Part shown: positions 20,977-52,642 of the stretch, piece by piece
How the letters are laid out: each line of letters begins with the position of its first letter
Position numbering within the stretch: position 1 is the first letter of the stretch
NCBI RefSeq assembly: GCF_002303885.1
Contig: NZ_MRCM01000005.1
Location: 62,001-126,000, forward strand
Length of the DNA: 64,000 bases
Source of the DNA: Flavobacterium sp. ACN2
GTDB taxonomy: Bacteria > Bacteroidota > Bacteroidia > Flavobacteriales > Flavobacteriaceae
Reading direction: 5' to 3'
The notes under the pieces: model-generated
Database searches by the model: none
What the model was told of the DNA's origin: nothing
The model's input: only the letters and a program-made list of their open reading frames with translations
Made by a program: the position numbers and the translations under genes

Positions 20977-21543
20977 TTACAATTCCCTATCTCCAAAAGG
21001 AGCTTTCCAAGCTTTCGCTAAAATGCGGGCCTTTACCTCATCATAAGAAAGAGGTTCATAATTGTGGCAATCAACACCAACATCAAACGAGCGAGAAGTT
21101 TCATCATCAAATAAATGACCGTGAGAGTGACCGTATAAGTGCCATGTTCCTCTAAATGAACTTCTCCAAACTTTCATTGCATAGTGAAACAAGATTATTT
21201 TCTGCCTTCCGTTTGGTGCATCTCCATCTTCAACACTTAATTCATAATAATCTTTAATCCACTCAAATCGTTTAGCGTAACTCAACGCCGATTTATCGTG
21301 ATTGCCTTTTACGAGAAAAATAGAACCATTTAATTGATCTAAAATTTCTTTTGTTCGTTCTGGTCTCGCCAAAGAAATATCACCTAAGTGATAGACAATA
21401 TCTCTCGGACTCACCTTTTCATTCCAACGTTTAATGAGTTCCTGATCCATCTCCTCTACCGAGGCAAAAGGTCGTTCACTAAACCTAATTATATTCGTAT
21501 GACCAAAATGATGATCAGACGTAAAAAATATTTTTTGATTCAT
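20977..21543 (-). CDS. Calcineurin-like metallophosphoesterase
   Basis: 188 residues. Metal ligands are visible in FFTSDHHFGH (D/H), YHLGDISL (GD), VKGNHDKS (GNHD) and LFHYAMKVW plus GHSHGH. This is a complete compact phosphoesterase fold. In the RNA-repair island it is a candidate for removing 2',3'-cyclic or 3'-phosphates to prepare ends for ligation, as phosphatases do in other repair operons; the substrate is not shown by sequence. A catalytically dead N-terminal paralogue lies upstream at 22221-22379. It is co-directional with the neighbours, 65 bases after the 173-residue gene. Confidence 0.85.
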   Translation of the reverse strand: MNQKIFFTSDHHFGHTNIIRFSERPFASVEEMDQELIKRWNEKVSPRDIVYHLGDISLARPERTKEILDQLNGSIFLVKGNHDKSALSYAKRFEWIKDYYELSVEDGDAPNGRQKIILFHYAMKVWRSSFRGTWHLYGHSHGHLFDDETSRSFDVGVDCHNYEPLSYDEVKARILAKAWKAPFGDREL

Positions 21544-22220: not shown

Positions 22221-22379
22221 CTAAATGATATATAGGGTTTCCCGAAAATTTACCTTTTCATTCCATAGGCTAATGCATTCTAAATCTGCTCCTTTAATTG
22301 AGGCAAACGAAGATTCACTTAACTCCACTGTATCCGTTTGACCTTTATGGCCCGACGCAAATCCTATTTCTTGATTCAT
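22221..22379 (-). pseudogene. Truncated, catalytically dead paralogue of the phosphoesterase
   Basis: A 52-codon intact frame (ATG at 22379, TAG at 22221-22223) that aligns with the first 53 residues of the phosphoesterase at 20977-21543. MNQ-I-F-S-H, SE, FAS and WNEKV are shared in register. The metal-binding SDHHFGH has become SGHKGQT, so no activity is possible, yet no stop or frameshift interrupts the frame. It ends where the parent would continue into the GD motif. It is either a remnant of a duplication or a retained short decoy or regulatory peptide. Confidence 0.65.
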
Positions 22380-23905: not shown

Positions 23906-24060
23906 GTTACAGGTTTTTGAGACCCGTCGACTAACCAATTCGTCCAACCGAAACGTGTTCGGTGCAGGATTCGAACCTGCATAACACATCCAATGCTCTA
24001 TCCAAATTGAGCTACCACATTACTGTGAATGGGATTCGAACCCACAACCCTTAGATCCCT
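23906..24060 (-). ncRNA. tRNA-like RNA fragments upstream of the SPFH gene
   Basis: Read on the minus strand, three tRNA-derived pieces follow each other. 24025-24060 has a T arm (GTGGG-TTCGAAT-CCCAT). 23962-24020 has a perfect D arm (GCTC...GAGC, 23995-24012) and T arm (GCAGG-TTCGAAT-CCTGC, 23964-23980), separated by only 14 bases, so there is no room for an anticodon arm. 23906-23960 has an anticodon-arm-like stem with loop CTCAAAA. None forms a complete cloverleaf. They lie between operator-promoter P1 and the SPFH start, matching the tRNA-like cofactor described for SPFH RNA-repair systems. Exact ends are unknown. The rest of 23572-24250 holds only purine/pyrimidine-rich repeat sequence. 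Confidence 0.6.
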
Positions 24061-24251
24061 TGTGCGATAATTTTTTGGAAAACCATCAAAACCTCCAAAC
24101 CAAGCTGCATAGAAAAACATAATACGCTTTCGCGAAAAGTCTGCTACAATGGTGCTATACAGAAACACCCAACAAGGCTTGTTTGATATTTTTAATCAAA
24201 GTCTCCTTTGATATTCATTTTTTTTTTTAAGAACGTTTTTTGTTTCTAAAA

Positions 24252-24290
24252 CAAAGATTCAAATGATCCTGCGCAATTATTCTGCGCAGG
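24252..24290 (-). promoter_or_regulatory. Operator-promoter P1 (tRNA-like/SPFH operon)
   Basis: Palindrome CCTGCGCA-N7-TGCGCAGG at 24268-24290, then 8 bases, then a -7 element AATCTTTG (24252-24259) on the minus strand. It has the same arrangement as the copies upstream of rtcB and of the RING gene leader. Reads towards the tRNA-like fragments and the SPFH gene. Confidence 0.7.
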
Positions 24291-24299
24291 ATATTTTTT

Positions 24300-25085
24300 T
24301 TAATTAATCCATTCTATAACCGTCGATAAATAAGCTTCTCTTACTTCATCAAATCGAGTTATGTTCGGAATATGATTTACTTCTAACAAATATTTAGAAC
24401 CATCTTTTCCAACGATATAATCATTTCCAATCATATCCATCTTCAAAGTTTCTTTGATATAAATTGTATCTGCTAGTAAATCTTCATCAACAGGCATAAA
24501 ACCTGCGTTATCAGGATGAATAGATTTTAACCAATCGTCTCCTTCTAATTTAATCTGCCAATAAACATCTCCAATCATCATGATACGAACGGCTTCTCCT
24601 TCATAATAAGGTTCAATTGTAGCCGTAAATTGGCTTTCCCATTCTCCTGTAAAACGATGTTTATTCTCGCCGCAATGCCAATTACCCCATTTGGCAACCG
24701 TATCATTTGCAATAGTTACAGAAGCTCCAGCACTTATAAACCCACGAGGTGCACTAAATTTCGAAAGAGATAATGCTTTTACCAGGCACGGAATCTTAAA
24801 TCGGCAATCCAACATTGCTGCCGCATTCGGATAACAGTCTCCTCGCCAAATTGCTAAACCAGTAATAAAATCGAAATCATTATCGTAAATTCCATAATAA
24901 ACCACTTTATCAACTGGAAGCATTCCAACTCCATTGGCTTTTTCCATATAGAGCACTTCATCTTTTACTACGATTTTAGGAATAGACTGATGCCAAATAA
25001 TATGTCCTGAATAATTGGCTTTTATTACATCATACTCTTCTTGTTCAATTCCAACAAGGGCTATTCGGTTGTATAATTCTTTCAT
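24300..25085 (-). CDS. ATP-grasp-like protein
   Basis: 261 residues. The C-terminal half shows an ATP-grasp pattern: YYEGEAVRIMMIGDVYWQIK with the Arg before MIG, and LLEVNHIPNITRF, where E-x-N would bind Mg2+. The N-terminal ~120 residues contain YYGIYDNDFDFITGLAIWRG. It resembles RimK-type amide ligases more than nucleic-acid ligases, but the substrate is unknown. It starts 12 bases after the exonuclease gene and is the last gene before operator P1, so it belongs to the ligase-exonuclease operon. It could add an amino acid or other group to RNA or protein ends. Confidence 0.65.
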   Translation of the reverse strand: MKELYNRIALVGIEQEEYDVIKANYSGHIIWHQSIPKIVVKDEVLYMEKANGVGMLPVDKVVYYGIYDNDFDFITGLAIWRGDCYPNAAAMLDCRFKIPCLVKALSLSKFSAPRGFISAGASVTIANDTVAKWGNWHCGENKHRFTGEWESQFTATIEPYYEGEAVRIMMIGDVYWQIKLEGDDWLKSIHPDNAGFMPVDEDLLADTIYIKETLKMDMIGNDYIVGKDGSKYLLEVNHIPNITRFDEVREAYLSTVIEWIN

Positions 25086-25097
25086 TTTTTTAATTTT

Positions 25098-25646
25098 TTA
25101 TTTCTTTAAAACTTTATACAGCAATTTGGCTGCATTGTAAGCATCATCCGCTCCATTATGATTCTCTCCTTCAAAAGATTCTCCTATTAACTCTAGCTCT
25201 TTCAATAATCCTTTAGGTTTCTCCTGAAGGTAAACTAAATTAAAAAGTGTCTTTATATTCAAATAGTCATTTCTAAATGGGTTTTCAATTGCTTTTGATT
25301 TACATTCTTGTTCTAATATTTCTTTATCAAAATCGCCATAACCGGCAAATGTTCTATACTTTGCCGAATATTTGGAATTAATTTTCTTCAATGCTTTCTC
25401 AAGAGAAGTTCCTTCTATCTGTAGTTTTTCATTTGTAATTCCAGTTAATTGGCTACAAAAAGAAGAAACTTGAGAAACTTCTGGTTTGATATAAAAACTT
25501 TGTTTATCTTCAATTTCTCCAGACGATAATATTAACTTGCATACTCCTATCTCGATAATTTCTCTCTGATTTAAGAGTGTTTCCTCCTTAGATTCCCAGC
25601 AAGTTGCTTCAATATCAATCACTATAATTTTATCATATAACACCAT
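25098..25646 (-). CDS. DEDDh 3'-5' exonuclease (ERI1/KapD-like), second copy
   Basis: 182 residues when started at the ATG at 25646 (MVLYDKIIVIDIEATCWE); a longer frame back to 25724 adds a low-complexity Ile-rich stretch and is unlikely. IDIEATCWE, YGDFDKEILEQ and HNGADDAYNAAKLL supply the DEDDh residues. It is a clear paralogue of the exonuclease at 20409-20954; the two bracket the RNA-repair genes. It is tightly coupled to the ATP-grasp gene and lies 134 bases after the RNA ligase gene. Confidence 0.88.
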   Translation of the reverse strand: MVLYDKIIVIDIEATCWESKEETLLNQREIIEIGVCKLILSSGEIEDKQSFYIKPEVSQVSSFCSQLTGITNEKLQIEGTSLEKALKKINSKYSAKYRTFAGYGDFDKEILEQECKSKAIENPFRNDYLNIKTLFNLVYLQEKPKGLLKELELIGESFEGENHNGADDAYNAAKLLYKVLKK

Positions 25647-25780
25647 GATTTCTAAATTCTTAATTATTATTATTAAATATATAATTTCCCGGTATTTTCT
25701 TTTTTTTGAAATTGCTGTTCGCATCTCATAAAAATACCCGAACTGACGGACTGCTAATCTCTAATAACTCTTTACTATTA

Positions 25781-26353
25781 CTATCCATTAAGCATCACTT
25801 CCATTCGTTTAATACCAAAATCTGATTTTCTTAATTTACACATTCGCTCATCTGAAATGTGATGGAAAACAATACCTTCAATGTCATTCTCTGATAAGAA
25901 TATTTCTAAATCCTCAAAATCAAGACTTACAAAATCAAGTATTTCACTTCCGTGTTTTACCAATGTATGTTTCTCAAAATTTTCCGGGTTTCCTTGTACT
26001 TTAGGTCCGCATAATTCGTAAGTTCCATCAACTTTATTTTCTAATCCATCAAAACCTTCAAAGAAATGTTTATCCTCTGATTTTGAACGATCACATTTTA
26101 ACCAGTGTGGGTGATGTCCCGAAATTAGATCTGCTTCCTGGCAAGGAATTGCTCCCAACGGAATTGTTCTTCCATTTTTAGCATCAAACCTTTTAAATAT
26201 TTCACCCTCTATAATTGCGACAGATGTACCGTCAAATTTTCTGGTTGCAATAGCTTCTCCTTCAAAAACCCATTTGTTTTCAATATTAATTTTATCTATA
26301 ACCCTTCCTAAATCATTAGGATCTTTGGCGAATAATGTGCTTATCTTTTTCAT
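25781..26353 (-). CDS. ATP-dependent RNA ligase (RLIG1/DUF5565-like)
   Basis: 190 residues. Nucleotidyltransferase motif I is ATRKFDGTSVAI, with Lys39 as the adenylation site. Motif III-like LCGPKVQGNPE, motif IV-like IEGIVFHH and motif V-like CKLRKSDFGIKR follow in order. The compact size fits the RNA ligase 1/DUF5565 type rather than a full T4 Rnl1. The protein has no separate OB domain. It starts 28 bases after the tRNA-Leu-like gene, so the tRNAs and ligase probably share a transcript. Likely role: sealing cleaved tRNAs after end healing by the phosphoesterase and exonuclease encoded downstream. Confidence 0.85.
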   Translation of the reverse strand: MKKISTLFAKDPNDLGRVIDKINIENKWVFEGEAIATRKFDGTSVAIIEGEIFKRFDAKNGRTIPLGAIPCQEADLISGHHPHWLKCDRSKSEDKHFFEGFDGLENKVDGTYELCGPKVQGNPENFEKHTLVKHGSEILDFVSLDFEDLEIFLSENDIEGIVFHHISDERMCKLRKSDFGIKRMEVMLNG

Positions 26354-26381
26354 TGTATATTTTTTTAAATCTTCATTTTGT

Positions 26382-26466
26382 ACAGGAAGAGTCCCGATAG
26401 CTATCGGGGCGAACTCTCAGGAAACTGATTCTAAATCAGCCGTGTTTACCATTTCACCATTCCTGC
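26382..26466 (-). tRNA. tRNA-Leu(UAG)-like, T arm interrupted by a palindrome
   Basis: Acceptor GCAGGAA with TTCCTGT (one G-U) and a 5-bp anticodon stem GCTGA/TCAGT around loop TTTAGAA. Anticodon UAG, with A37 where bacterial tRNA-Leu(UAG) normally has G37. The T arm starts GAGAGTTCG, but the loop is then filled by the palindrome CCCGATAGCTATCGGG (26393-26408), which also occurs at 50065 and 54338. It may not fold as a normal T arm. No encoded CCA. Confidence 0.65.
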
Positions 26467-26589
26467 ATTTTTAATTAAGTTTCTAAGGTTCTGAGATGCT
26501 AAGGGACTACGTTTTTTAAACTTTTAAATCCGAATCTCAGCAACTCAGTAGCTTAGAATCTTAGCAACTTTAAAAACCATTTCATTTGT

Positions 26590-26660
26590 CTGGGAAGCAG
26601 GATTCGAACCTGCGACCTCCCGCATCCAAAGCGGGTAAACAACCTCCGTTATCTTCCCAG
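26590..26660 (-). tRNA. tRNA-Pro(UGG) with unusual D arm
   Basis: 7-bp acceptor CTGGGAA/TTCCCAG, including the C1-G72 pair that marks tRNA-Pro, and A73. Anticodon stem CCCGC/GCGGG with loop TTTGGAT: anticodon UGG, but A37 replaces the usual G37. T arm GCAGG-TTCGAAT-CCTGC is perfect. The D arm is weak (TAAC/GTTG) with a 4-base loop. 71 nt, no encoded CCA. Confidence 0.8.
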
Positions 26661-26718
26661 GTCTATTTATGTAACTTAGAATCTTAGCATCTCAGAAACT
26701 TAGAAACTTTAAAAAAGC

Positions 26719-26790
26719 GGCTCATACGGGAGTCGAACCCGTTTCTCCCGAGAGACAGTCGGGAAGGTTAGCCAGTAACCCCAATGAGCC
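26719..26790 (-). tRNA. tRNA-Asp(GUC)-like with U37
   Basis: 7-bp acceptor GGCTCAT/ATGAGCC, discriminator G73 as in tRNA-Asp. Anticodon stem CCCGA/TCGGG, loop CTGTCTC: anticodon GUC followed by U37, where functional tRNAs have a purine. T arm ACGGG-TTCGACT-CCCGT. The D arm is an atypical GGTTA/TAACC stem with a 5-base loop. 72 nt. Confidence 0.78.
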
Positions 26791-26811
26791 AGTTCCTTCT
26801 AGAGAACAAGT

Positions 26812-26884
26812 GATTTTGGAAGGATTCGAACCTTCGACCATCTGCTCCGTAGGCAGACGCTCTATCCAACTGAGCTACAAAATC
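26812..26884 (-). tRNA. tRNA-Arg(ACG)
   Basis: Fully canonical 73-nt cloverleaf: acceptor GATTTTG/CAAAATC, D arm GCTC...GAGC, anticodon stem TCTGC/GCAGA with loop CTACGGA (anticodon ACG, G37 instead of the usual A37), T arm GAAGG-TTCGAAT-CCTTC, A73. Its 5' end lies 14 bases after the attenuator-like terminator, leaving no room for its own promoter. Confidence 0.88.
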
Positions 26885-26897
26885 ATTTTTTTGGGCA

Positions 26898-26926
26898 TAA
26901 AAAAAGCACCCGATCAAAGGTGCTTT
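26898..26926 (-). terminator. Attenuator-like terminator before the tRNA/ligase genes
   Basis: Minus-strand stem AAGCACC/GGTGCTT (7 bp plus one G-U), loop at 26911-26918, T run. The 5' arm GCACCT (26923 to 26918) can pair instead with AGGTGC (26975 to 26970) inside the upstream mini-ORF, which would break the terminator. Confidence 0.75.
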
Positions 26927-26952
26927 ACAAAATTCAACGTGATATAACTATC

Positions 26953-27048
26953 CTATTGCCTATATTGATGCACCTGCATTGTCAAACGTCCAAGATCGAA
27001 TCTTGCGTTTAGTGGTAATCCGTATGATATTTTATTTTGTAAAGCCAT
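26953..27048 (-). CDS. 31-residue leader peptide upstream of tRNA/ligase operon
   Basis: ATG at 27048, TAG at 26953-26955. The peptide reads MALQNKISYGLPLNARFDLG and continues RLTMQVHQYRQ. It has a canonical promoter (27116-27148) about 60 bases upstream of its ATG and an intrinsic terminator 27 bases after its stop. It contains CCA, CTA/CTT, GAT and CGT codons, which are those read by the Pro(UGG), Leu(UAG), Asp(GUC) and Arg(ACG) tRNAs encoded just downstream. This is the layout of a translational attenuator; a role as a free small protein is the alternative. No homologue is known to me. Confidence 0.6.
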   Translation of the reverse strand: MALQNKISYGLPLNARFDLGRLTMQVHQYRQ

Positions 27049-27115
27049 TTTGTATGCTGTATTATATTTTAAATTCTTGTTATTATTTGAAACGATGTGT
27101 TTCAATTTTGTTCGG

Positions 27116-27148
27116 CAAAGATAATGTCGAAAAAATCATATTTCCAAA
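27116..27148 (-). promoter_or_regulatory. Promoter of the leader-peptide/tRNA/ligase operon
   Basis: TTTG (27145-27148), 21-base spacer, TATCTTTG (27116-27123) on the minus strand: an exact Bacteroidota housekeeping promoter. It is the only such motif between the tRNA-like array and the RNA ligase, apart from the weaker one at 27613. The stretch 27150-27425 upstream of it shows no gene. Confidence 0.75.
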
Positions 27149-27425
27149 TATTTTTTAAGTTTATTTTTCTGATTATCAATTAGTTATACTAAAATTAAAC
27201 CAAAGAAATCCCTGTCCGCAAACTGGTGCAGATTTCTCTTTTTATCAAATGACTGTTACTCATCAGATTACTTTTCAAGATTATATTTCGCTATTTGGTT
27301 TAATCATTAAACATTTTGTCAATTATTTTTTTAGTTTTTTTAGTTATGGTTTAATATTCTATCATTTTATTGTCTTTCTATTCCATTTTATTGTCACAAT
27401 GAACGAAGTCGAAGTGGTTAAAAAC

Positions 27426-27454
27426 AAAAAAAGCGCCCTACTTTGAGGACGCTT
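27426..27454 (-). terminator. Terminator of mini-gene 27486-27584
   Basis: Minus-strand stem AAGCGTCCT/AGGGCGCTT, 9 bp with one G-U, loop CAAAGT, followed by a T run. Confidence 0.85.
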
Positions 27455-27485
27455 TTCTGTTTTATGATGAGTTTGACTCTAAATT

Positions 27486-27584
27486 TTACATTTTAATTTC
27501 ATAAAAATACATATTGCATCCTGATACTTTAGCCGGAAGTTCTCCTGCTAAGTGGTCAAAATATTTTGCGATTGAAAGTGTCAT
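27486..27584 (-). CDS. 32-residue mini-gene, unknown
   Basis: ATG at 27584, TAA at 27486-27488; the peptide begins MTLSIAKYFDHLAGELPAK and ends YFYEIKM. A TACATTTG -7-like element lies 29 bases upstream of the start, and a strong intrinsic terminator follows 32 bases after the stop, so this is an independent short transcription unit. It has the same promoter-ORF-terminator design as the leader peptide at 26953-27048, but nothing obvious to regulate directly downstream. Could be a small protein or a leader. No family recognised. Confidence 0.5.
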   Translation of the reverse strand: MTLSIAKYFDHLAGELPAKVSGCNMYFYEIKM

Positions 27585-27612
27585 ATGTATTTTAAATATT
27601 TAATTATGGCCA

Positions 27613-27620
27613 CAAATGTA
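27613..27620 (-). promoter_or_regulatory. -7 element TACATTTG of the mini-gene
   Basis: An exact TAnnTTTG on the minus strand. The nearest TTG upstream leaves a 27-base spacer, longer than usual. Confidence 0.4.
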
Positions 27621-27776
27621 GTATATTTTGTCATAATTTAAATTGCCCAATGAAATTAATTTTAACATATTTTTTTAAAACTAATCTAATTACACTGATA
27701 TTCAATAATATATAATTCGATAAATGGAAATGCATATTTTAGGAATTTATTAGCGCGAAAATGCATAATAAAAAAT

Positions 27777-27847
27777 AGGTGTGCAAGGACTCGAACCTGC
27801 ATCCTTCTGTTTAGCAAACAGTTGCTCTTCCAATTGAGCTAACACCT
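27777..27847 (-). ncRNA. tRNA-like T4 (Ser-type GCU anticodon on a short-variable-loop body)
   Basis: 71 nt. Acceptor AGGTGTT/CACACCT (six pairs, last one mismatched), D arm GCTC...GAGC. Anticodon loop TTGCTAA with anticodon GCU on a 4-bp stem, T loop TTCGAGT with a bulged T stem. GCU would make it tRNA-Ser, but the long variable arm of tRNA-Ser is absent. The first 24 bases match T2 and T3 except at position 1. Confidence 0.65.
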
Positions 27848-27854
27848 TTGTATT

Positions 27855-28155
27855 TTTATTTACCACGAAGGCACTAAGACACGAAGTTTTCTTTTAAGTT
27901 TTGAAGCAAAAAAACCTTTGTCACTTTGAAACTATGCGTCTTTGTAACTTAAAAAAGAAAGGTGTGCCTGGACTCGAACCTGCAACCTCTTACCTGCTGG
28001 GTAAACGCTCTTCCAATTGAGCTAACACCTTTATATTTTATTTGCCATGAAGGCGCTAAGACAAAAAGTTTTTTTTTAAAAGTTTTGAAGCAAAAATTAA
28101 GAAACAAAAACCTTTGTCACTCTGTCTCTTTGAACCTTTGCAACTTTAAAAAAAA
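27855..28155. repeat. Duplicated spacers between tRNA-like genes
   Basis: The spacers at 27861-27957 and 28039-28152 both start with a CACGAAGGCACTAAG-type repeat and continue with GTTTTGAAGCAAAAA and CCTTTGTCACT. Spacer plus tRNA-like gene was therefore duplicated as a unit of about 190 bases. Confidence 0.7.
27960..28030 (-). ncRNA. tRNA-like T3, anticodon loop without U33
   Basis: 71 nt. Acceptor AGGTGTT/CACACCT, D arm as in T2 and T4, anticodon stem TTTAC/GTAAG with loop CCAGCAG (C33, nominal anticodon AGC). T loop TTCGAGT with a mismatched T stem (GCAGG/CCAGG). The missing U33 makes normal decoding unlikely. Confidence 0.65.
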
Positions 28156-28225
28156 GGGTGCACCTGGACTCGAACCTGTACCTTTCCCAGTGGTGGGGAA
28201 CGCTCTTCCAATTGAGCTAACACCC
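28156..28225 (-). ncRNA. tRNA-like T2, anticodon loop without U33
   Basis: 70 nt. Acceptor GGGTGTT/TGCACCC, D arm identical to T3 and T4, perfect anticodon stem TTCCC/GGGAA with loop CACCACT (A33, nominal anticodon CCA), T loop TTCGAGT with mismatched stem. It starts four bases after T1. Confidence 0.65.
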
Positions 28226-28229
28226 TAGT

Positions 28230-28297
28230 GGATAGTTGGGACTCGAACCCAAAACTTTTCCTGTGGGGGGAATATTTTTCCAATTAAACTACTATCC
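28230..28297 (-). ncRNA. tRNA-like T1, directly after the SDR stop codon
   Basis: 68 nt. Perfect acceptor GGATAGT/ACTATCC and T arm TTGGG-TTCGAGT-CCCAA. Weak A/T-rich D arm. Anticodon stem TTCC/GGAA with loop CCCCACA (C33, nominal anticodon CCA). Its 5' end is six bases after the SDR stop codon, so it must be processed from that mRNA. Confidence 0.68.
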
Positions 28298-28303
28298 TAA
28301 CTT

Positions 28304-29683
28304 TTACCAATTGGAAACTTTGTAGTTTTTCAACAAGACCCCAAATATACTTTTTCCTTTAATACCCTGCACGATTGGATCAAAAATTCTGCTGGCTCCA
28401 TCTACAGAATCTAGCGGCGGAATATATCCTTCTTCAAACTGCTTTTTTCGCAGACTTTCTTTTGCTCCGGTCGAAATCCAGCCAACATCTACACTGGTCA
28501 TAAAGATGGCATCTTCTGCAAATTCTTTGGCAGAAGTAAGTGTCATCATATTCAGTGCTGCTTTTGTCATATTAGTATGAGGGTGAAAAATCGTTTTGTT
28601 AGTATAACTAAATATTCCCTCAGAAGATGTCACATTCACAATAAAACGTTCATCGAATGCTGAGTTTAAAAATAATGGTTTAAGTTCTTTTATCAGGAAA
28701 TAAGGCGCAATTTGATTGATCAGATTAACCTCAACAAGCTCATACATGCTAATTTCTTCCAAAGTAGAATTCCAACTGGTTTTATCCCGATTATCAACAG
28801 GTTGTCCAAAACGCGAAATTGCGATTTCAGTTTGTTCTTCAAAACCATACTCTAAAGCTTTTACTTCTGATGTTACTTGAGTTTTATTGGCAATCAGATG
28901 GACATTTACCGAAAATTCTCCAAGCAGGTTTTCTTCTTTTCTAATTAATGGAACATAATATTCATCTGGATATTTTATAGTTTGAGCCGCATTATTTATT
29001 AAAATGTCCAAACTGTCAAATTTGGATTTATAAAATGATACAAATTCATTAATAGCATTTAGATTTCGTAAATCCAGACCATAGATAATCAGATTTTCTC
29101 CCCATTGATCAAAATCTTCTTCAAGTTTGAACTGTTCTAACGCAAGCGCAGGAAAACGGGTTGTAAGTACAACATTGGCATTACTTCGCAATAATTTTAA
29201 AGCTGTTGCAAAACCTACCTTTACTCGTCCGCCAGTTAAAATTACGTTTCTTCCTTTTAAATCTATATTCTGAAAACGTTTTTCATAGTTTTCTTCTGCA
29301 CATTCTGGACAAAGTCTTGTGTAGAAACTATGGGCCAACTTATAAGATCGATTACAGGCATAACAATTTTTAGGCAGATTTAATTCGGTAAATTGTTGTT
29401 CTTCTGGATTTTCTTTTTCTGAAAATAATGTTTCTCCTTTTAAAGCTTTTGATACTATAGTCGCGTTTATACTAACCTGAAAATCCTGTTGCTTTTTTGA
29501 AGTATAACTGACGCTTCGGATATTTTTTTTTGCATTTTTATGAATTTTGGTAATCAAACCCGCAAATAAATCGTTGTCAGGATTCTCCAACGGATTGTCT
29601 TTTAAAGCCTGTAAAACCTTTATACAGCTTTTCCATTCTTCATCATTAAAAATATAGGTATTGTTGTTATTGTTTTCTTTCAT
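28304..29683 (-). CDS. SDR-fold protein with zinc ribbon, catalytic Tyr missing
   Basis: 459 residues. The N-terminal ~100 residues are unassigned. Then comes a CxxC...CxxC zinc ribbon (CYACNRS and LCPECAEE, about residues 107-132), then a Rossmann short-chain dehydrogenase domain with TGGRVKVG and ILINNAAQT. The usual YxxxK appears as TNMTK, so the catalytic Tyr is replaced by Thr; it may bind NAD(P) without classic dehydrogenase activity. It is transcribed with the DUF434 gene 54 bases upstream, and the tRNA-like array begins six bases after its stop. A role in nucleotide or RNA metabolism is possible but unproven. Confidence 0.78.
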   Translation of the reverse strand: MKENNNNNTYIFNDEEWKSCIKVLQALKDNPLENPDNDLFAGLITKIHKNAKKNIRSVSYTSKKQQDFQVSINATIVSKALKGETLFSEKENPEEQQFTELNLPKNCYACNRSYKLAHSFYTRLCPECAEENYEKRFQNIDLKGRNVILTGGRVKVGFATALKLLRSNANVVLTTRFPALALEQFKLEEDFDQWGENLIIYGLDLRNLNAINEFVSFYKSKFDSLDILINNAAQTIKYPDEYYVPLIRKEENLLGEFSVNVHLIANKTQVTSEVKALEYGFEEQTEIAISRFGQPVDNRDKTSWNSTLEEISMYELVEVNLINQIAPYFLIKELKPLFLNSAFDERFIVNVTSSEGIFSYTNKTIFHPHTNMTKAALNMMTLTSAKEFAEDAIFMTSVDVGWISTGAKESLRKKQFEEGYIPPLDSVDGASRIFDPIVQGIKGKSIFGVLLKNYKVSNW

Positions 29684-50401: not shown

Positions 50402-52642
50402 TTAATCCACCAATAATTGCGTCACAACCGCTGGATTCATCGCCCATTGTGCTGTATACACCTCATCGGCAACTTCATTTTCAGTAATCGTTAAACCTTG
50501 AGCTTCCGCTTTAAGCTGTAACAAACTACCAATATTCAATTTGCTGTTTAGTTTTGCCAACAACGCCTGAACGCCTTTGAAATCCAATCCACCTACAACC
50601 TGACCTCCGAAAGTCATCTCTAACCAAACGATTTCTCTTTTGGCTACATCCAACACTCCAAAAACCAAACCTTTGGCAACATTTTGCGTCACACGAACCT
50701 GATGATCTACACACGACGGATCGTATGCTACACCAGTTTTCTCTGAAATTTTCATCGGGTGTTTGCTGTTCATCCAACCTACAACTAGATTTGGCGTAAT
50801 ACTTCCGTTGCTGTAGGCATTGCAAGTAAAAGTTACAAATTTCGCTTTGGCTTTCGCCAATTCGTCGATGTTGATGTTGATATATTCGGCAGTTCCAATT
50901 TTATTCGGAATGCTTCGGATATCTCCACTATGCTGACAACCTGTAGTTGTCAATCGGCTGAAAGAACAAATATCGGCTTTATCTTCATAAGCGATATGAC
51001 AGCTTAAATCCATATCTAAATGTTGCGCTGGCAAATCTTTACCCCATTGCATAAACAATCGCACTTCGTTACCTTCAACTGGGAAACGTGTTCCCATTAA
51101 AGCAACCGGCAAATCCTGAACGGTTTCGCTTCGATCTCCTATAGAAACCGGAATGTTAAACAATTGCGGATCGATATACATTGTTTTATTGGTGTTCGCA
51201 ATTTTTGTAAATCGTTTTTTCATGGCCAAAAGACACAATTCTTCGATTTGGTTTTTCATCGCTTCCAACTGCACATCATCATACAATTTCAATAAACCGT
51301 TTGGTTCAATTCTTTTGTTTGTTCCGCCCAAAGGTTTCACACTTCGCTGCATGTTTTTATCAAAGTAATTTTGAGCATACATATTTAAAGTAAACACCAA
51401 TCGAGCCGGAACTTTATCGATGATTTCTTCAAAATGGGCAATCGTTTCTTCCGCACCAAACCAAAGCATATTCGAAAATAACGAACGTGCAAACAATCCT
51501 GGGCGTTGTTTTAATAACGCAAATGTTTTATCGGCATCAAATTTCAATCTTGACGAATCTACTTTGCTTTGCCAAACATCATACACTTGGTTGTAAAATA
51601 CATCCATTAAAAAATTCAATTTCTCGAATCCTTTTCTTTTGCTGTATTCTGCCAAACGAAGCGCTCGGATAAAACGAACCCACATTCCGCGTTTTGGATG
51701 CATGGTTTCGCACATTGCCTCCACTTCCATATTCATATTATTCAACCAATTTGCTACCATTAAACATTCTTTTCGGGAATATTTTAGTTTCAAATCTTTT
51801 TGAGAAGCAATTCTCGCCTGAACGCTTGTATCTAAAACATTATGGAAATGTTGTGCATTTTTTGATGTTCTTTTGATAATCGCTTTTGGCTCGATAATTT
51901 GAAGCATTCCTGTGTTTTTATACCATAAGTATCGCAAGATATCTGTTGGCGTTTTTAAAAACTGAGACGCTTCGTCTTCTTTACCGTTTTCGATCAAAAG
52001 GTCAATCACCAGCATTAAAGTTTCCTTCATTGCTACTTCTGTTTTTGGTAAAGGCAAATATTGCATCGCCATTTTTAAACTATCTACCTGAGTAGCGTCT
52101 AAAGCGGTTTTAGATTGCAATAACGAGATATAGAAATCATTTAAATCTTTTTCTGTCCATAATTCCAGCATTTTCAATTTGCTTCCTTGACCGATATTTT
52201 CCAGTTTTCCAAATTCAAACGGAGTTCCGCAGAACGGACAACCGTTGTATCTTTCTAATGGAAAAGTATTATCTGGGATAATATGACCGCATTGTAAAGT
52301 TGTTCCGTTTTTAGTTTTAAAAACATTTCCGAAATACGTGATAATATGATCTACAACAGATTCGCCTGTTGGAACGTTCCATTCTTTTACCAATGGCGTC
52401 CAGTTTTTATCTGTTCCTAAAATTGCTTTCAGAACTTCTAAAACCTCAACTTTATAATTTGGGTTGACATTATTTAAAGCATGTAATAATGACTCAGAAA
52501 ATGTAAATCCAAGTTTAGAAACATTCGCTAACAAAACGGATGTTGTTCCTGATAAATTTTTAACGTCATTCTTAATCATTTCTGATGGAATGAAAATAGC
52601 ATTTTGGCGTAAACTGATTTTTAATAATTCTCTTGTTTTCAT
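50402..52642 (-). CDS. RING-like/TerD-like protein of the RtcB locus (MXAN_6230/SCO0854 type)
   Basis: 746 residues. An RING-like zinc site lies at residues 118-138 (CGH at 118-120, CPFC at 135-138). A long helical region of ~350 residues follows, with WVRFIRALRLAEYSKRKGFE and similar helices, reminiscent of Ro/TROVE-type HEAT repeats. A C-terminal ~200-residue part has a TerD-like beta pattern (HLDMDLSCHIAY, HSGDIRSIPN, AEYININIDEL). This matches the domain layout named MXAN_6230/SCO0854 RING protein, often found near RtcB. A scaffold role for the tRNA-like RNA in its leader is a reasonable inference. Confidence 0.7.
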   Translation of the reverse strand: MKTRELLKISLRQNAIFIPSEMIKNDVKNLSGTTSVLLANVSKLGFTFSESLLHALNNVNPNYKVEVLEVLKAILGTDKNWTPLVKEWNVPTGESVVDHIITYFGNVFKTKNGTTLQCGHIIPDNTFPLERYNGCPFCGTPFEFGKLENIGQGSKLKMLELWTEKDLNDFYISLLQSKTALDATQVDSLKMAMQYLPLPKTEVAMKETLMLVIDLLIENGKEDEASQFLKTPTDILRYLWYKNTGMLQIIEPKAIIKRTSKNAQHFHNVLDTSVQARIASQKDLKLKYSRKECLMVANWLNNMNMEVEAMCETMHPKRGMWVRFIRALRLAEYSKRKGFEKLNFLMDVFYNQVYDVWQSKVDSSRLKFDADKTFALLKQRPGLFARSLFSNMLWFGAEETIAHFEEIIDKVPARLVFTLNMYAQNYFDKNMQRSVKPLGGTNKRIEPNGLLKLYDDVQLEAMKNQIEELCLLAMKKRFTKIANTNKTMYIDPQLFNIPVSIGDRSETVQDLPVALMGTRFPVEGNEVRLFMQWGKDLPAQHLDMDLSCHIAYEDKADICSFSRLTTTGCQHSGDIRSIPNKIGTAEYININIDELAKAKAKFVTFTCNAYSNGSITPNLVVGWMNSKHPMKISEKTGVAYDPSCVDHQVRVTQNVAKGLVFGVLDVAKREIVWLEMTFGGQVVGGLDFKGVQALLAKLNSKLNIGSLLQLKAEAQGLTITENEVADEVYTAQWAMNPAVVTQLLVD

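Follow-up and report, generated by a model that had tools for sequence, protein, structure and literature searches.

Ribosome-mediated attenuators of the trp, his, and thr leader type combine a leader ORF carrying control codons with mutually exclusive antiterminator and terminator structures. We analyzed a 64,000-nucleotide stretch of the Flavobacterium sp. ACN2 genome (hereafter, the window), which contains a locus of similar design, with a leader ORF, control codons, and an antiterminator that excludes a terminator. However, the output of this locus is a set of tRNA genes, the control codons belong to many tRNAs and do not form a single-codon run, two leaders are arranged in tandem, and one half of the antiterminator (element a) is located inside the ORF. 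The locus is probably a ribosome-mediated transcription attenuator with an array of spare tRNAs and an RNA ligase under its control, the leader serving as a list of the tRNAs in its array. Ribosome-mediated attenuation as such is known; what appears to be new is an array of tRNAs behind a leader composed of their own codons, and no report of such an arrangement was found among the papers listed in searches of open-licence literature.

Individual features of the locus have counterparts in other described systems. The tandem attenuators of Salmonella mgtCBR likewise place a pair of short ORFs within a single regulated leader; however, the products of mgtCBR include a virulence protein and a Mg transporter (PMC3641672), and in our locus both leaders are equipped with a promoter and a terminator of their own. 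The toiL uORF of E. coli is likewise a single short ORF that responds to several translation stresses, but it works via translation and Rho-dependent termination on a toxin-antitoxin transcript (PMC12121999), whereas here an intrinsic terminator precedes tRNAs. Phage tRNAs with loop changes have been proposed to evade anticodon nucleases (PMC10264068; van den Berg et al.). These phage arrays are likewise clusters of loop-altered tRNAs, proposed as replacements for cleaved host tRNAs, and the tRNA-Asp with U37 of our locus also occurs in viral contigs; in contrast to them, most arrays described here come from bacterial genomes and follow attenuators whose codons match them. The rsr-yrlBA-rtcBA operon likewise contains RNA repair genes and, according to the title of the report, is regulated by damaged tRNAs (PMC7790460); there the activator RtcR with a CARF-type domain is the regulator, whereas here that role seems to fall to the leader, which would sense a missing tRNA. 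In addition, amino-acid operons in F. psychrophilum were suggested to be under leader-peptide attenuation (PMC9723704), and mycobacterial tRNA arrays were termed putative antidefence systems with unknown role (PMC12803027).

The leader adjoining the tRNA array (leader 2) and the genes behind it comprise the following features:

27116–27148, minus strand, promoter of leader 2, with TTTG at 27148–27145 and TATCTTTG at 27123–27116
26953–27048, minus strand, leader-2 ORF of 31 codons, MALQNKISYGLPLNARFDLGRLTMQVHQYRQ
26991–27005, minus strand, hairpin P1 within the leader-2 ORF (CAAGAT/ATCTTG in the window)
26970–26975, minus strand, element a (AGGTGC) in ORF codons 25–27, the predicted antiterminator half
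26941–26952, minus strand, hairpin P2 (GATA/TATC), directly 3' of the leader-2 stop codon
26918–26923, minus strand, element b (GCACCT), the 5' arm of the terminator and predicted partner of either a or a' (26911–26906)
26899–26926, minus strand, intrinsic terminator of leader 2, with the stem at 26926–26903 and the T run to 26899
26810–26884, minus strand, array tRNA-Arg(ACG), loop CTACGGA, 72 bits
26717–26790, minus strand, array tRNA-Asp(GTC), loop CTGTCTC (U37), 48 bits
26588–26660, minus strand, array tRNA-Pro(TGG), loop TTTGGAT (A37), 35.8 bits
26385–26466, minus strand, array tRNA-Leu(TAG), 28.8 bits for 26466–26416, end placed by eye
25781–26353, minus strand, RNA ligase (Pfam RLIG1 PF17720), 27.8 bits against a cut-off of 25
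25098–25724, minus strand, RNase_T-type exonuclease (Pfam)

An earlier note on this DNA had described leader 2 as an attenuator, and its coordinates for the leader-2 elements are all correct on the sequence. The 31-codon ORF lies at 27048–26953, as it had said, and carries the CCA, CTA, GAT, and CGT codons that it listed at positions 12, 13, 18, and 21, respectively, with an additional CTT at codon 19; these five are codons of the four downstream tRNAs. Elements a (26975–26970) and b (26923–26918), for which pairing had been claimed, are exact complements. The tRNA-Arg gene begins at 26884, 18 bases from the terminator stem and, as described, 14 bases from the end of the T run at 26899, so this gap is too short for a further promoter of the Bacteroidota type; a promoter at 26885–26898, which had been named as possible counter-evidence, has no room there. 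The promoter of leader 2 had been called canonical. Promoter-type boxes are indeed present at 27116–27148, and most relatives scanned share the motif, which we take to be the Bacteroidota-type promoter consensus; the sites listed by a sigma-70 scan do not include it. Thus, a promoter, a short ORF, and an intrinsic terminator stand ahead of the genes, as expected of an attenuator, with translation of the ORF judged from the conservation of its frame. The earlier account had missed three things, namely a tandem leader 1, the oddity of the tRNAs, and the condition of tRNA-Leu.

The claim that four tRNAs follow the terminator is well founded for Arg, Asp, and Pro, whereas tRNA-Leu is perhaps a remnant. 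It was not called by ARAGORN, its covariance score of 28.8 bits falls just below the gathering score of 29, and a short palindrome of the CCCGATAGCTATCGGG type lies inside its T arm (by eye); for these three reasons the gene may be broken. Palindromes of this type inside array tRNA genes also occur at another locus (L014, minus strand, ~1470–1230), and a similar case is seen in G032. They seem to break the array tRNA genes that contain them, such as tRNA-Leu, and the low-scoring, in part broken array tRNAs could be decaying genes.

The RNase_T-type exonuclease probably belongs to the same transcription unit as the array and the ligase, and other neighbors in the window include an SPFH protein and, ~22 kb away, RtcB (both by Pfam). 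A TROVE/Ro60 identity for 50402–52642 was dropped as it had no Pfam support. In an Rfam scan of 24000–29000, only tRNA reached its gathering score, and no T-box was among the matches with E up to 1. Upstream of leader 1, the segment 27774–28298 contains four further tRNAs (Trp, Trp, Ala, and Ser; 25–46 bits), one of which overlaps a weak YrlA match; at the corresponding position, locus L049 has Ser, Ala, and one unnamed tRNA. A 52-aa ORF at 22221–22379 is similar to the N-terminus alone of the ORF at 20977–21543, which looks metallophosphoesterase-like (named by eye), and short stretches like this ORF recur behind leader 2 in many loci devoid of tRNAs.

Leader 2 is the second of two tandem leader-attenuators. 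Leader 1 is located ~500 bases upstream and is similarly built, and a conserved element lies between the two:

27427–27584, minus strand, leader 1, with the ORF at 27584–27486 (MTLSIAKYFDHLAGELPAKVSGCNMYFYEIKM), hairpin P1, and its own a, b, and terminator
27521–27516, minus strand, leader-1 element a (GGATGC), in the ORF; 27452–27447, minus strand, leader-1 element b (GCGTCC)
27458–27427, minus strand, leader-1 terminator, with GCGTCC as its 5' arm
~27620–27613, minus strand, leader-1 promoter (by eye), the upstream box being weak in the window
27160–27270, minus strand, conserved inter-leader element, an inverted repeat with a GACAG loop followed by GCGGACAGGGATT and TTGATnATCA

Leader 1 scores 30 against the Rfam family Phe_leader (RF01859), below its gathering score of 55. 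Searches for other copies of the leaders in the same genome gave best non-self E values of 0.28 for leader 2 and 0.007 for leader 1. The inter-leader element is kept across genera and may be a protein (activator) site, or could be a third RNA element; one of its inverted repeats shows some covariation (6 both-side cells versus 1.3), and RNAalifold, run on an alignment with one misaligned row, found zero consensus pairs, on which account a defined RNA structure was set aside.

Leader DNA matches 84 of the 299 Flavobacterium genomes at E ≤ 0.001, a count that includes the window's own genome and in which the weakest matches are short pieces. Among 76 loci fetched as DNA matches, leader 2 was found in 70 and leader 1 in 66; one leader-1 match (L083), misplaced and apart from any leader 2, was dropped before alignment, and the analyzable sets leave out 7 of the 76 loci for leader 2 and 13 for leader 1. 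The leader-2 frame is open through element a, from ATG to a stop ahead of the terminator, in 66 of 69 analyzable loci, the three exceptions being a lost stop, another frame, and a misassigned start of transcription. For leader 1 this holds in 59 of 63 loci, and the remaining four are open in another frame relative to the anchor motif. Leader-2 peptides diverge freely except for the part bearing a, although the peptide of F. tyrosinilyticum KCTC 42726 (L258) is identical to that of the window, letter for letter. No tRNA was found within 1.2 kb in 27 of 68 Flavobacterium loci; in these, the leader is kept ahead of other cluster genes.

Aligned relatives retain the reading frame, the hairpins, and the a:b complement across Flavobacterium species and beyond the genus, as expected if the earlier note was right about an attenuator. 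Its proposed check for compensatory pairing gave a divided answer. The leaders covary overall, with 41 both-side-changed cells against 17.5 in shuffles for leader 2 and 38 against 16.8 for leader 1 (0/500 shuffles in both cases), and so does the leader-1 terminator (12 versus 1.6; 0/500). Among 69 distinct relatives, all six pairs of hairpin P1 show some both-side change with 71.5% of cells paired, while P2 of leader 2 has 90.4% of cells paired and both-side changes in four of seven pairs. The leader-2 terminator varies little (97.1% of cells paired; 2 both-side cells versus 0.3; 15/500), and support for P2 of leader 1 is weak (56.8% of cells paired). In contrast, the a:b helix is near-invariant in Flavobacterium, with 92.5 and 96.2% of cells paired and one-sided changes only; since, moreover, the loci were chosen by a loose GGTG motif, the helix is unproved inside this genus.

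Other genera offer better evidence for the switch than the Flavobacterium a:b helix. The 13 loci fetched from them have arrays of 5–17 tRNAs, and all 13 carry leader ORFs with an a:b complement, arranged as a tandem pair in 12 loci and as a single leader in L135. The complements differ from those of Flavobacterium (e.g., GGGAGA:TCTCCC, CTTCGG:CCGAAG, and GGAAGGT:ACCTTCC), and the leaders stop 21–43 bases ahead of the terminator arm. In a second family, the anticodon arm with U37 was detected in seven genomes, and the tandem leader pair is present in all five fetched loci. For 31 leaders (25 from the 13 other-genus loci and six from three of the five second-family loci), the a:b complement has a mean z of 2.05 and is significant singly (p < 0.05) in 14 of 31, the loci not being independent. 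A functional micropeptide encoded by the leader would also preserve a frame, and in Flavobacterium most leaders retain both the frame and a terminal QVHxYRQ; such a role is highly improbable, given that the peptides look unrelated between genera and that the C-terminal frame of leader 1 shifts within the genus.

For the window alone, the agreement between leader codons and downstream tRNAs is only modestly better than expected: all four codon boxes occur by chance in 4.9% of sets of 23 random genomic codons, at least five cognate codons in 17.6%, and the exact CCA, CTA, GAT, and CGT set in 0.9% of sets of 30. The case therefore rests on the comparison between loci. Conservation of the four named codons, which had been suggested as a test, was dropped in favor of an array-permutation test, as just 5 of the 68 ORFs from Flavobacterium contain all four (CCA in 30, CTA in 34, GAT in 53, and CGT in 36). 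The statistic was the fraction of codons upstream of a in each leader that encode an amino acid for which the array of that locus has a tRNA, compared with arrays permuted among loci. It was applied to 146 of 215 stretches (some from the same genome) that contain a leader and at least two tRNAs, the other 69 being left out, and near-identical leaders were removed by shared 3-mers, so that 78, 60, or 41 loci were kept. For these three sets, respectively, the leader-2 match is 0.417, 0.437, and 0.432 versus 0.346, 0.360, and 0.362 after permutation (z of 10.0, 9.1, and 7.1), and permutation within array-size classes gives z of 8.5, 7.8, and 6.1; all p values are the smallest that 10,000 permutations can give. 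When these bases are read in the +1 and +2 frames instead, the match disappears (z of −0.45 and −0.77), which makes it hard to explain by relatedness or base composition. For leader 1, the match is weaker (z of 2.0–3.3). Smaller earlier versions of the test pointed in the same direction, the weakest with p of 0.031 for 14 loci.

The match is concentrated 6–15 codons before a (z of 8.06), with z of 3.10 for more distant codons, 1.87 for the five codons adjoining a, and −1.01 for codons after it. This peak fits the switch, because a ribosome stalled there leaves a free. In the window, a starts in codon 25, so that CGT at codon 21 is closer to it than the best zone. Among the 41 loci, the leader contains Cys in 14 of the 15 that have an array tRNA-Cys versus 9 of 26 without, and the corresponding counts are 19/19 versus 13/22 for His, 25/25 versus 12/16 for Arg, 15/15 versus 19/26 for Lys, and 3/6 versus 5/35 for Trp. 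There is little or no effect for Phe (18/19 versus 20/22), Tyr (16/18 versus 19/23), Asn (10/11 versus 26/30), and Met (1/3 versus 18/38), and Val in leader 2 likewise has little or no match to the array. At the level of codon boxes, given for 60 loci as counts without a permutation control, Leu CTN is present in 36/36 versus 16/24, Arg AGR in 14/16 versus 22/44, and Ser AGY in 14/14 versus 32/46; the CGN share of Arg codons, also without this control, is highest (0.78) in loci lacking an array tRNA-Arg. These comparisons support the view that a leader is an inventory of its array. The idea of cognate control codons thus holds in a general form, in which amino acids follow the array in frame and mainly in position, and not for the exact four-codon set; the absence of cognate codons, named earlier as possible counter-evidence, was accordingly not observed. 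As in other attenuators, control codons match the regulated product, which here comprises many tRNAs represented mostly by single codons.

The start of the leader-2 ORF (27045–27034, codons 2–5) has a 12-base exact complement at 26933–26922, in the spacer running into the terminator, possibly an extra control upon failed initiation. This pairing is strong only in L023–L025 (mean z of −0.01 over 68 loci), and its conservation was dropped as a candidate feature for that reason. In the window, predicted energies are −13.8 kcal/mol for the region from a to b and −11.7 kcal/mol for the terminator. Folding with and without a ribosome mask, as the earlier note had advised, agreed with it in one respect: when the region upstream is masked to mimic a stalled ribosome, both leaders fold into a:b first. 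If a is masked instead, leader 1 forms its terminator, but the window's leader 2 does not; neither a:b nor the terminator is present in its minimum-energy fold with a masked or with no ribosome, because the 12-bp pairing hides b. A trailing ribosome would be expected to prevent this pairing. An antiterminator that excludes the terminator is therefore seen as a:b across genera, and in the window's own fold it is complicated by a third pairing. The switch is presumably kinetic, since a:b can precede the transcription of a', yet the terminator wins once its full stem is made.

Comparison between loci thus shows the architecture of the switch, the conservation of the frame, and the codon–array match with its position, and on this basis we propose the following sequence of events. 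When tRNAs are plentiful, the ribosome would finish the leader ORF and cover a near the stop codon, so that the terminator b:a' forms and the array stays off. When a tRNA that the array can supply becomes scarce, the ribosome would stall at its codon, ~6–15 codons before a; the free a would then pair with newly made b, the terminator would be blocked, and the polymerase would enter the tRNAs and the ligase by read-through. Leader 1, located upstream, would act by the same design.

The anticodon loops of the array tRNAs suggest what the scarcity may be. Loops from the arrays of six other-genus loci and of Flavobacterium loci were compared with chromosomal loops, the latter taken from 29 loci of one genome. 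Array tRNA-Asp has U37 in 37 of 37 cases and tRNA-Glu in seven of eight (A at both in the chromosomal tRNAs of the window's genome), and array tRNA-Pro has A37 in 22 of 22 and tRNA-Phe G37 in 15 of 16 (chromosomal G and A, respectively, in the window's genome). The change is not general, since the Tyr, Lys, Asn, and Met loops are equal to the chromosomal ones in most cases, and in the second family (L187 and L190) Asp, Pro, and Glu have the same loop changes while Phe is unchanged. Because several array tRNAs have changed loops, the natural trigger is probably cleavage by anticodon nucleases, which would cut the ordinary tRNAs while the loop-altered spares, being putatively resistant, escape. 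The array would accordingly replace damaged tRNAs, and the trigger would be tRNA damage rather than another scarcity. Sensing of amino-acid starvation, with ribosomes stalled by uncharged and not by cleaved tRNAs, is quite unlikely: classical attenuators of the trp and his type act in this way, and a sequence cannot tell cleaved from uncharged tRNAs, but extra tRNA should not relieve starvation, several loops are altered, and the unit adjoins RNA-repair genes.

The same switch might alternatively control RNAs that act as nuclease decoys or competitive inhibitors rather than as working tRNAs. The odd loops would suit such a role, as would the scores of the window's tRNA-Asp, tRNA-Pro, and tRNA-Leu (48, 35.8, and 28.8 bits) next to 46–72 bits for the majority of the genome's other listed tRNAs, and an inhibitor role was raised for the tRNA-like YrlA (Hughes 2020, PMC7790460). 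Nevertheless, this is unlikely, as the array tRNA-Arg has the top tRNA score of the genome (72 bits), the codon match implies that decoding by the array tRNAs matters, and some identity elements look kept (by eye). We therefore favor working spares, and consider it likely that these loci constitute an undescribed class of tRNA-integrity sensors of Bacteroidota and perhaps phages, in which the leader lists nuclease-resistant spares codon by codon, the loss of any ordinary tRNA turns on all of them together with RNA repair, and the list is edited as the array changes. If so, the locus would be a self-referring loop whose sensor reads the codons of the very tRNAs it regulates, and every leader would be expected to answer to the tRNAs of its own array and to none besides. 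Bacteria, like phages, would then hold hidden altered tRNAs for when their own are destroyed. This would give a function to chromosomal tRNA arrays, and the leaders could serve as ready-made detectors of tRNA loss in the search for new anticodon nucleases.

RNA-repair genes often accompany the arrays outside Flavobacterium. In four of six loci from other genera (L131, L133, L134, and L135), RtcB and a PrfH-like protein are encoded ahead of the leaders, and SPFH follows the array in four of six; the PrfH-like protein of L133 has an RF-1 domain by Pfam. In L131, L133, L134, and L135 the order is RtcB, PrfH-like, TPR-like (named by eye), leaders, tRNAs, and RNase H-like/SPFH. Leaders, array, and neighbors together read as a translation-repair island. 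These neighbors would also suit a general sensor of translation stress, in which any slow or stalled ribosome, due to an antibiotic or to ribosome damage, gives read-through whatever the codons: RtcB2-PrfH repairs damaged ribosomes and shields E. coli from colicin E3 (PMC9223846), toiL is a precedent for a single uORF sensing many ribosome drugs (PMC12121999), and the number of distinct amino acids in other-genus leaders exceeds that in random draws (combined z of 6.2 and 4.0, with loci that are not independent). Such a sensor is very unlikely here, because the codons track the array in frame and position, as a sensor of particular tRNAs would require.

The array tRNAs are, from their sequences, a divergent family maintained between species. 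In 18 loci, the array tRNA-Asp has the same first 50 bases; the window's divergent tRNA-Asp has matches in 8 of 249 genomes of its family, an array tRNA-Phe in 10 of 397 genomes, and the tRNA-Asp arm with U37 in 22 of the 395 genomes from its order. A scan with this arm yielded 120 matches, namely 113 stretches from named genomes and seven viral contigs. The arm sits in tRNA-Asp in 103 of these, and 92 are in arrays of at least three tRNAs, 73 of them with at least one leader by the criteria used. Both leaders were found in Flavobacterium, Tenacibaculum, Winogradskyella, Bizionia, Lacinutrix, and one Saprospiraceae genome, among others. Of the 19 arrays without a leader, 13 are preceded by less than 600 bases within their stretch, and the other six belong to Planctomycetota (two), Ruminococcus (two), Lachnospiraceae (one), and Crocinitomix (one). 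Five of the stretches from other phyla, the clostridial L226, L263, and L301 and the planctomycetotal L203 and L296, have a tRNA-Asp with the U37 arm in arrays of 4–21 tRNAs that are leaderless by the criteria used; these are possibly phage or mobile arrays.

With regard to a possible phage origin, phage records match the array tRNAs partly, over at most 10% of the query among the matches listed, and in the two phage stretches inspected the sole tRNA-Asp has A37, as does tRNA-Glu. In five of the seven viral contigs the U37 arm is located in tRNA-Asp, and three viral stretches pass the filter for a leader plus an array. Leader-like units stand ahead of small tRNA arrays in the viral contigs L306, L308, and L309 (23, 159, and 476 kb). 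The leaders of L308 and L309 are rich in Asp, Pro, and Gln codons before a, and their arrays hold Asp and Pro tRNAs, which may be a small echo, in phages, of the match between leader and array.
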